A program made the position numbers and the translations under genes. Below, in pieces: positions 34,534 to 37,255 of a stretch of DNA of 37,255 nucleotides (the first letter of the stretch is position 1; each line of letters opens with the position of its first letter). Source of the stretch: Hydrogenobacter sp. (GTDB taxonomy: Bacteria > Aquificota > Aquificia > Aquificales > Aquificaceae); the NCBI GenBank assembly GCA_041287335.1, contig JBEULM010000037.1:1-37255 (forward strand), written 5' to 3'. A model generated the notes under the pieces. That model worked only from the letters and a program-made list of their open reading frames with translations, was not told the origin of the DNA and ran no database searches.

Positions 34534-35598
34534 TTACAACTCTATCAAGTCAAGATCTATTTCTGACATAGGCTTGCCCACATCATCCTCTACTACCACT
34601 ATGTTTTCAAGCCGAATACCGAACTTACCCGGAATGTATATGCCCGGCTCTATAGTAAAGACCATACCTTCCTGTATTAACCTTTTGCTGTCTTTTCCTT
34701 TATAATAGACTCTCGGATATTCGTGTATATCAATACCTATACCGTGTCCAGTAGAGTGATTGAACAGTCCCTTGAATCCCTTCCTTTCTATGTGCTTTCT
34801 TGCAGCTCTATCCACATCTCCTAAGGTATTTCCTACTTTTACCTTATCAAGAGCAAAAAGGTGTGCGTCTTTAACGGTTTGATAAGCTTTTCTGAACTCC
34901 TCGTCAGCTTTGCCGATGAATACAGTTCTTGTGAAGTCTGTACAATAACCCTTCCAAACCAGACCCATGTCTATAAGAAGGTTTTTACCCGACTCTATCT
35001 TCTTTTGGGAAGTTTCCCAGTGAGGTATCGCGGAACCTTCACCGCTTGCCACTATAGCTGGAAAGCTCTCTCCGCTTGCACCCATTTTGAAAATCTCTTC
35101 CACTATGAAAGCCCTTAAGTCCATTTCTCTCATACCGGGTTTAACAAATTCAAGGAGTTTTCTATATATGAGATCGCTCTTTTTAACACCCTCACGCATT
35201 ATCCCTATCTCTTCTTTACTTTTTATCGCTCTCATCTCTTTTAGAAAACCAGAAAAACCTATCCACGCAAAACCTTTTGATCTTAGCGAACGTTTTAGTT
35301 CACAGCTCACCTTATCCATTTCGTAACCTATCCTCTTAGCCCCAAGCTCTTTCAAAAAAAACTTTATGTACTTTACAGCGTTCTGATCTATGAGTTTTAC
35401 ATCCCATTCAGGAAGGAAACTCTTTGCTCTCTCGTAATATCTTGCATCAGTAAGTAGGTGATGGCTGTCTGGAGTAATTATCACATATGCGTGACTCGAT
35501 CTAAAACCAGTGAGATAAAAGACGTTTGATGGAGAACTTATCATAAAGGCATCAAGGTCACTCTTTTTGACAAGCTCCTTCACTTTCCTTAGCTTCAT
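34534..35598 (-). CDS. M24-family metallopeptidase (Xaa-Pro aminopeptidase/dipeptidase)
   Basis: 354 residues. A creatinase-like N-terminal domain (SSPSNVFYLTGF) is followed by the pita-bread domain with the dinuclear metal ligands: Asp in LIDMGLVWKGYCTDFTRTV (two Asp), His in HSTGHGIGIDIHE, Glu in TIEPGIY and Glu in IRLENIVVV. It is the usual size for PepQ/YpdF-like Xaa-Pro peptidases. The ATG overlaps the rpoN stop (ATGA), so the two are translated together. Dipeptidase and aminopeptidase activities cannot be told apart from sequence. Confidence 0.92.
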   Translation of the reverse strand: MKLRKVKELVKKSDLDAFMISSPSNVFYLTGFRSSHAYVIITPDSHHLLTDARYYERAKSFLPEWDVKLIDQNAVKYIKFFLKELGAKRIGYEMDKVSCELKRSLRSKGFAWIGFSGFLKEMRAIKSKEEIGIMREGVKKSDLIYRKLLEFVKPGMREMDLRAFIVEEIFKMGASGESFPAIVASGEGSAIPHWETSQKKIESGKNLLIDMGLVWKGYCTDFTRTVFIGKADEEFRKAYQTVKDAHLFALDKVKVGNTLGDVDRAARKHIERKGFKGLFNHSTGHGIGIDIHEYPRVYYKGKDSKRLIQEGMVFTIEPGIYIPGKFGIRLENIVVVEDDVGKPMSEIDLDLIEL

Positions 35599-36746
35599 CT
35601 TAGCCCCAAAAGCTTTCTGTACTTAGCTACCGTTCTTCTGGCTATGTCTATACCTCTTTCTTTTAAAATCTGTGCAACCTTACTGTCACTAATAGTCAAG
35701 TTCTCCTGCAATACCTCCTTTATGGCTCTCATCACTTCTTCTTTGCTCATACCTCCCTTGCTTTCCTTCACAAAAAAGAATTTCAAGGGATATATGCCCG
35801 CAGGTGTTTTTGCGTATCTGGAGTTGATCACCCTACTTACTGTGGACATGCTCACTCCAGAGCTTTCAGCAATCTCCTTTGCGGTCAATGTCTTTAAGGG
35901 TTCGTTTTTGATCAAAAATCCCTCCTGCCTCCTTACTATAGCTTCCCCTATCTTTCTCAATACGTTTCTTCTTATTTCAAGGATAAGCTTTAGCGCTTTT
36001 GCTCTCCTGAATTTTTCCTTGCTTATTTCATCCTGAGGCTGTATCTTCTCATCCATTTCTACATCTATAAAATCCTCCTGTATAAAGATATACCAACTCT
36101 CTCCGTCGTATTCCAAAATTATGTCTATCCTTGCACCTACTGGAGACAGATCCTCTCCCTCTATGGGTCTTAGCCTGAGACGTGATAGGATATCTTTTAT
36201 TTCGCCGTCAATATTTCCAGTCTTTAAAGCGTGCAAGACTTTTTCGTGAATTTTTGTTTCTTTTGGATACATCTCCTGTAGCTGTACTTTTATAAACTCT
36301 TCCAGATTTCTTGAAGCAACACCGACGGGTTCTATTTCCATCATAATAAACTCCCTTATGTCTTCTACGTATTCTTCACTCACTCCATAGAGTTTTGCTA
36401 TATCCTGCGTACTATCCTTGAAAAATCCATCGGAGCTGCATCTGTAAAGTATCTCAAGAGCTATCTCTTTATCTATACCATCAAACTCAAGACTTATCTG
36501 TTTGGAAATATCGTCAAATAAGCTATCCTTTGCCACAGCTTCTTTAACTCTCCCTTCCTCCTCTCCAAAGAACCATCTGGGAATGCGCTTTACCACGTGA
36601 GTTATATAAGGGTTTTGATTTTCCTCTTCTTTGAGTATTTGCTCCAACTCCTGAGAACTTTTAGTCAAAAGCTCCACATCCTGTTTTAAAAGTACTGATA
36701 GGCTAAGCTTTGGTTTTACAGTAGTTTTTAACTCACCTTTTACCAT
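35595..36746 (-). CDS. rpoN: RNA polymerase sigma-54 factor
   Basis: 383 residues from the ATG at 36746 (MVKGELKTTVKPKLSLS). Region I is present but unusually poor in glutamine. The core-binding region spans ~80-230. The DNA-binding part has the helix-turn-helix TAKEIAESSGVSMSTVSRVI with RYAKTPAGIYPLKFFF, and the C-terminal RpoN box is ARRTVAKYRKLLGLR. I chose this start over an ATG at 36839 because a near-consensus promoter (36832-36805) lies inside that longer frame, placing transcription start near 36798; a GTG at 36770 is the alternative. Sigma-54 drives activator-dependent genes. I did not find a convincing -24/-12 site in the regions I read. Confidence 0.93.
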   Translation of the reverse strand: MVKGELKTTVKPKLSLSVLLKQDVELLTKSSQELEQILKEEENQNPYITHVVKRIPRWFFGEEEGRVKEAVAKDSLFDDISKQISLEFDGIDKEIALEILYRCSSDGFFKDSTQDIAKLYGVSEEYVEDIREFIMMEIEPVGVASRNLEEFIKVQLQEMYPKETKIHEKVLHALKTGNIDGEIKDILSRLRLRPIEGEDLSPVGARIDIILEYDGESWYIFIQEDFIDVEMDEKIQPQDEISKEKFRRAKALKLILEIRRNVLRKIGEAIVRRQEGFLIKNEPLKTLTAKEIAESSGVSMSTVSRVINSRYAKTPAGIYPLKFFFVKESKGGMSKEEVMRAIKEVLQENLTISDSKVAQILKERGIDIARRTVAKYRKLLGLR

Positions 36747-36804
36747 AGAATAAAAATGTAAACTACCCACCTTCCATAAGGCGAATGGAAACCTCCTCAG
36801 AACT

Positions 36805-36832
36805 ATTATAAGCCTATTGAATAATCTGTCAA
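36805..36832 (-). promoter_or_regulatory. Promoter of the rpoN operon
   Basis: Minus strand TTGACA (36832-36827), a 16-bp spacer and TATAAT (36810-36805). It heads the leftward run rpoN, peptidase, tRNA-fMet, tRNA-Ser, carA, ftsI, and rules against rpoN starts upstream of about 36798. Confidence 0.75.
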
Positions 36833-36871
36833 GTAGCATTTAGGCTGTTGCGTCTGCAACTACACTGACCC

Positions 36872-36900
36872 TTGACAAAAGATCTTTTTCGGTATATTAT
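36872..36900 (+). promoter_or_regulatory. Strong promoter driving the right-edge transcript
   Basis: TTGACA (36872-36877), 17-bp spacer, TATTAT (36895-36900), on the plus strand and divergent from the rpoN promoter. A short inverted repeat, GTTGC-GTCT-GCAAC (36847-36860), lies just upstream of the -35 and could be an operator. Confidence 0.75.
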
Positions 36901-36906
36901 ATAAAA

Positions 36907-36990
36907 ACGTGGGTTAAAAAAGCGGGAGTGATAAACTCCCTCCCCCTCCCTCCCCTAATTGTTTGCCCCACCGCCCGGTGGGGCTTTTCT
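36907..36990 (+). ncRNA. Candidate small structured RNA (or terminating leader) with C-rich anti-SD tract
   Basis: The predicted transcript starts near 36907 and would be about 84 nt. It contains hairpin 1 (GGGAGT-GATAA-ACTCCC, 36924-36940), then a pyrimidine tract in which CCCTCC-type units repeat (36936-36955), a short AT-rich linker, and a strong terminator hairpin with a TTTTCT tail. No open reading frame with a start fits. The tract is complementary to GGAGG-type ribosome-binding sites, so base-pairing to mRNA leaders is an attractive idea. The alternative is a 5' leader of the sfsA-like gene, whose ATG lies only 9 bp after the tail, in which case the terminator is an attenuator. I cannot decide between the two from sequence. 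Confidence 0.55.
36965..36990 (+). terminator. Strong Rho-independent terminator or attenuator
   Basis: GCCCCACCG (36965-36973) and CGGTGGGGC (36976-36984) pair perfectly over 9 bp (8 bp with a 4-nt loop), followed by TTTTCT. It ends the predicted C-rich transcript and sits immediately before the sfsA-like start codon. Confidence 0.85.
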
Positions 36991-36998
36991 AAAAAATT

Positions 36999-37255
36999 AT
37001 GAGATTTCCTCATCTGACCGGTGCTAAATTTGTAAGGAGGTTAAATAGATTCGTTTGCTCCATACTCATACAAGGAAAAGAGTTTCCGGCTTATATAAGA
37101 AATACGGGAAGATTGAGTGAGCTTTTAAAGGAGGGAAGTTCTGTATACGTAAAGCATAAGAGTAGAGGTAAATACAACTATGAGCTTGTTTTGGCAGAAT
37201 ATGGTGAAGGGATTTTAGTATGTCTTGATGCACAAATAGCGCCCAAGCTTTATGC
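36999..37255 (+). CDS. sfsA: SfsA-like protein, N-terminal part, runs off right edge
   Basis: The first 85 codons are visible and no stop is reached. MRFPHLTGAKFVRRLNRF at the start, then AYIRNTGRLSELLKEGSSVY and LVCLDAQIAPKLY, match the N-terminal OB-like domain of SfsA (nucleic-acid-binding, nuclease-like; first named for sugar fermentation stimulation in E. coli). The start fits the family's usual N-terminus. There is no Shine-Dalgarno sequence close to the ATG, which lies 9 bp behind a terminator tail, so translation may be leaderless from an unseen start or controlled by read-through. Confidence 0.8.
   Translation, partial: MRFPHLTGAKFVRRLNRFVCSILIQGKEFPAYIRNTGRLSELLKEGSSVYVKHKSRGKYNYELVLAEYGEGILVCLDAQIAPKLY

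Follow-up and report, generated by a model that had tools for sequence, protein, structure and literature searches.

A C-rich small RNA conserved across Aquificota is a candidate trans-acting anti-Shine-Dalgarno regulator

The C-rich regions of the Firmicutes small RNAs (sRNAs) RoxS/RsaE, FsrA and CsfG pair with mRNAs at ribosome-binding sites, and several such RNAs, each under different signals, coexist in one organism (PMC8216469). In Sinorhizobium, the trans-acting and ultraconserved alpha-r14/NfeR1 RNAs are defined by the anti-Shine-Dalgarno (SD) motif CCUCCUCCC (PMC10746234). Two published transcripts of Aquifex aeolicus also belong in this comparison. The first, n68 (989704-989840, plus strand; 476/756 cDNA reads), is noted as Aae-65 of a 2005 RNomics study; it was reported as a candidate whose conservation was limited to 2-4 species, with no mechanism given in the text consulted (PMC4227106). 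The second, n75 (1168974-1169071, minus strand), is Northern-positive with an unclear published polarity, and the same text does not link it to n68. No function is proposed for either transcript in the literature consulted.

The locus described here lies in a window of 37,255 nucleotides (the whole stretch of DNA that was analysed), which is contig 37 of a 1.67-Mb Hydrogenobacter sp. genome. A predicted non-coding transcript of ~85 nt carries the C-rich tract CUCCCUCCCCCUCCCUCCCC, and the span from promoter to tail occupies 36872-36991 of the plus strand (Table 1). An initial annotation, made from the sequence alone, had proposed a C-rich transcript with a near-consensus promoter, no reading frame and a strong terminator. 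The promoter is indeed close to consensus, and the window ORF check found no sense-strand ORF of at least 30 aa inside the element. A coding reading was rejected on this ground, and also because the frame is not kept where relatives differ in length and no third-position pattern shows in the tract. The terminator and its T tail are real, although the stem measures 8 bp rather than the proposed 9, and the distance from the tail to the sfsA ATG at 36999 is 7 nt, not 9. The predicted fold of 36907-36991 is more stable than dinucleotide shuffles (z = -2.9), and the window holds three copies of TCCCTCCCC, where 0.37 would be expected; two of these fall inside the C tract.

Table 1. Positions of the predicted small-RNA gene and its neighbours in the window
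Feature	Position	Strand	Details
rpoN (sigma-54), divergent neighbour	35595..36839	-	Pfam Sigma54_DBD 9.2e-37
Sigma-70-type promoter TTGACA-17-TATTAT	36872..36900	+	TTGACA 36872-36877, TATTAT 36895-36900; 11/12 matches
Predicted small RNA, ~85 nt	36907..36991	+	5' end inferred 6 nt past the -10 box
Hairpin 1, GGGAGU-GAUAA-ACUCCC	36924..36940	+	Local, variable; missing in Hydrogenothermaceae members
C-rich tract CTCCCTCCCCCTCCCTCCCC, presumed anti-SD seed	36936..36955	+	Near-invariant across Aquificaceae
Intrinsic terminator GCCCCACC-GCCC-GGTGGGGC (RNA GCCCCACC-GCCC-GGUGGGGC)	36965..36984, tail TTTTCTA to 36991	+	8-bp stem
sfsA, 5' part only (contig ends within the gene); adjacent to but outside the RNA	36999..37255	+	Pfam SfsA_N 1.5e-17

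The gene order in the window is local, since rpoN and sfsA lie far apart in a related complete genome (G004). On the opposite strand, a 12/12 sigma-70 promoter (TTGACA-16-TATAAT, 36805-36832, minus) is contained in the extended 5' portion of the rpoN ORF. The rpoN start is therefore probably an ATG near 36746 (MVKGELKTT...), as in relatives. The rpoN leader also holds a four-codon ORF, ATG GAA GGT GGG TAG, at about 36777-36763, with AGGAGG upstream.

Conservation among relatives, which the initial annotation had named as a test, proved stronger and wider than it anticipated. A DNA search recovered the element from four of four genomes of the same genus at 84-93% identity and from most other Aquificaceae. 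Such identity in the genus, together with a sequence recognisable through the family, indicates that the C-rich element is not a product of chance. The C tract is near-invariant among 42 distinct Aquificaceae sequences and so is under very strong purifying selection. In the same 42 sequences, five of the eight terminator pairs show compensatory two-sided changes and none is broken, which shows that compensatory change maintains the terminator. The same promoter arrangement stands ahead of 41 Aquificaceae copies, with a mean score of 11.2/12. Taken together, the comparative evidence argues for an independent small-RNA gene. Hairpin 1 behaves differently. The initial annotation had suggested that it sequesters the first part of the tract and so acts as a switch, which does not hold as a general feature: the 3' arm is invariant and the 5' arm variable, 75% of cells pair, no pair has changed on both sides, and the hairpin is missing in Hydrogenothermaceae.

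Published data from A. aeolicus bear directly on whether the RNA is made. In the genome G007, the SRP RNA at 1303772-1303857 lies inside published n85 (1303758-1303875), so G007 coordinates are those of strain VF5. The VF5 homologue of the window RNA (G007:C1:989721-989815, plus strand) is within n68, and locus, strand and 5' boundary all agree: a start 6 nt past the TATAAT box would be 989703, 1 nt from the published boundary at 989704. By the published transcript data, then, the RNA is transcribed in A. aeolicus as a short RNA, and with the conserved tract and terminator this bears out the proposal of a functional RNA. A covariance model match identified a second Aquifex copy at 1168992-1169087 (minus), which coincides with n75. 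As n75 shares the C-rich tract and terminator plan of the family, its sense strand is the minus strand. The transcript was thus already known in one species, while the family, the seed and the spread appear to be new.

In its probable mode of action, the family resembles RoxS, FsrA and alpha-r14/NfeR1. At gathering score, Rfam found two tRNAs alone in the window and no sRNA family, RsaE/RoxS and FsrA included, and Rfam is without a family for the Aquificota C-rich RNA. The best sub-threshold match was ar14 (RF02344; 18.4 bits, E 0.093, gathering score 58.8). Like alpha-r14, the window RNA has a C-rich seed, here a presumed anti-SD one; unlike it, the window RNA has a single continuous tract in place of three hairpins that each expose CCUCCUCCC, a motif it does not contain. 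RoxS/RsaE, FsrA and CsfG differ from it in structure and belong to a distant phylum. With no Rfam threshold reached and the three-hairpin plan absent, the RNA is not a member of the RoxS/FsrA or alpha-r14 families. It does have the traits of the wider class of C-rich trans-acting sRNAs: its own promoter, an intrinsic terminator, no coding capacity and a conserved C-rich seed (about half exposed in the Aquificaceae form, type I).

The family extends well beyond Aquificaceae. A covariance model built from type I alone (R1) matches Hydrogenobaculum at 1e-13 to 1e-15 and many Hydrogenothermaceae at about 1e-7 to 1e-13. With a second model (R2), 107 of the 136 Aquificota genomes have a match at E<=1e-3; the R2 scores on the Hydrogenothermaceae form, type II, are circular because type II was included in its training. 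In type II, CACCTCCCCCCTCCCTCCCCC and the terminator come almost directly after the -10 box, so that the RNA would start with the C tract and have no hairpin 1. Type III, also from Hydrogenothermaceae, lies between topA and gatC (loci L221, L223, L224, L226, L228, L230 and L233), in most cases behind the FNR-like palindrome ATGATAAAAATCATT or a variant of it. Near copies of this box also stand ahead of genes for cytochrome bd oxidase, HemN, ferredoxin-thioredoxin reductase, 2-oxoacid:ferredoxin oxidoreductase and a molybdopterin oxidoreductase, a set that fits an FNR-type regulator, and Crp-family proteins are present. A reading of the box as a Fur site was dropped, given its fit to TTGAT-N4-ATCAA and the genes behind its other copies. 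The topA/gatC RNA looks like an oxygen-responsive sRNA, its control being analogous to that of FnrS. Desulfurobacteriaceae copies have weaker support (1e-4 to 3e-7 with R2), with TTGACA promoters in most cases examined. At three Hydrogenothermaceae loci (L227, L229 and L231), a third kind of C-rich stretch, with a terminator, directly follows a protein gene, in a 3'UTR-like position.

The pattern UC(4-6)UCCCUCC is present in 44/44 type I, 10/12 type II, 7/7 type III and 6/7 Desulfurobacteriaceae loci. What all types retain is the C tract, though this exact pattern is found in 0/10 loci of the Aquifex second-copy, Hydrogenobaculum and 3'UTR-like types. C-runs with GC-rich hairpins may have arisen more than once, and a single origin of types I, III and V is therefore not established. 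When 84,980 species were scanned for the exact pattern, the full type I arrangement appeared only in records labelled Aquificaceae or Aquificota and in one other, L158; about 30 matches outside Aquificaceae, on inspection, were without the RNA's terminator plan, with the exception of L158. This record, 'Acidobacteria bacterium isolate J001', holds a complete Aquificaceae RNA adjoining sfsA and on that account is probably a mislabelled Aquificaceae genome bin.

How such an RNA might act is suggested by its tract, whose complementarity to ribosome-binding sites, as first proposed, was upheld. In types II, III and V, ~95% of the tract is predicted to be free of pairing; in type I the average at 37 C is about half. 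We compared it with 414 start regions from a 400-kb sample of a relative's genome. GGAGG stood at the expected SD place in 131 of these; GGGAGG, which had also been considered typical, did so in just 11. At 37 C, tract duplexes with starts (-9.75 kcal/mol) were stronger than those with gene interiors (-6.72) or shuffles (-8.22), a comparison that is somewhat circular, since starts were picked partly by SD strength. At 75 C, SD pairing is weak, averaging -3.4 kcal/mol. A search of 11 genomes showed no excess of near-complementary 13-mers relative to a reversed-pattern control, and there is thus no evidence for a single dedicated partner; a single long antisense partner was rejected for the same reason. 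Of the 136 genomes, 130 encode Hfq, although the short U tail makes dependence on it doubtful. Hfq-family matches number two per genome in most Aquificales (including G000) and three in most Desulfurobacteriaceae.

A conserved, exposed, SD-complementary tract, the presence of Hfq and the lack of a dedicated partner favour a multi-target translational repressor. We consider it likely that the RNA is an autonomous, promoter- and terminator-bounded sRNA acting in trans, with a C-rich anti-SD-like seed that blocks mRNAs with G-rich ribosome-binding sites; here we infer the pairing, the repression and the targets. The C tract would pair with GGAGG/GGGAG-type sites of several mRNAs, and the duplex would prevent 30S binding. 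Where present, the 5' hairpin would partly mask and stabilise the tract. At growth temperature ordinary SD pairing is weak, so strong repression would be limited to mRNAs with unusually long G-rich leaders, and the same weakness at 75 C makes a C-only seed physically sensible. Related C-rich RNAs use other promoters, one of them FNR-type, and one seed thus appears to be placed under several signals.

Several other explanations have to be weighed against this one. An abundant mimic of the 16S 3' tail might compete with 30S subunits for all SD sequences and slow translation unselectively, acting as a global damper. The presence of GGAGG at the SD position in about a third of the sampled genes agrees with this, as does the predicted CACCUCC start of Hydrogenothermaceae members, which resembles the 16S tail, and a Betaproteobacteria toxic sRNA is among the better sub-threshold Rfam matches. 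We nonetheless regard global damping as unlikely: short pairings hold only weakly at 75 C, a CCUCC core would suffice where the whole ~20-nt tract is conserved, and at least two differently controlled copies suggest specific signals.

The C tract might instead bind and titrate either a protein or a regulatory RNA rich in G. There is precedent for a G-rich sponge acting on a C-rich sRNA, as with RosA and RoxS (PMC8216469), and Hfq is present, in two copies in most genomes. A sponge or decoy role is nevertheless rather improbable, as long complements are not enriched in the genomes, and the structure conservation analysis found no conserved protein-binding structure other than the terminator.

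The main alternative offered at the outset was a cis-acting leader or attenuator of sfsA. Downstream DNA is readable at 43 type I loci, and at 21 of these the sfsA ATG lies 2-7 nt past the end of the terminator, with no SD between, as this explanation would have it. A cis attenuator would always lie upstream of its regulated gene, yet at the other 22 loci sfsA does not follow and the RNA adjoins tmk, a permease, an ABC transporter or other genes with the same C tract; in other families, identical tract and terminator plans have rhomboid, topA/gatC and others as neighbours. Moreover, the terminator arms covary with each other and not with the C tract. As about half of the members are away from sfsA with the tract unchanged, sfsA attenuation is not the core function, and we rate it very improbable; the trans-acting reading is favoured over it. 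We also observed that no SD lies between the RNA tail and the sfsA ATG in the window or in relatives, the sole G-rich sequence nearby on the upstream side being the terminator's GGUGGGG arm. Finally, a DNA-level element, with a G-quadruplex on the opposite strand or an i-motif here and transcription incidental, fits the window tract, (C3+N1-7)4, but is barely credible, as the four-tract rule fails for three of the five type II tracts checked and for the one type III tract checked, while promoter and terminator are kept.

The trans-acting repressor favoured here may also form part of something larger. Possibly, though this is a tentative extension, the phylum carries a set of sRNAs with a shared near-pure-C seed suited to 70-95 C, placed under constitutive or FNR signals and some of them mimicking the 16S tail, which would amount to one anti-SD 'code' governing how mRNAs with G-rich leaders are translated in hyperthermophiles. 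More generally, the analysis joins two orphan Aquifex transcripts into one deeply conserved family with a testable mechanism. The family would represent a natural case of base-pairing regulation near the boiling point, and a trans-acting seed almost unchanged across so deep a phylum would, if true, be unusual.
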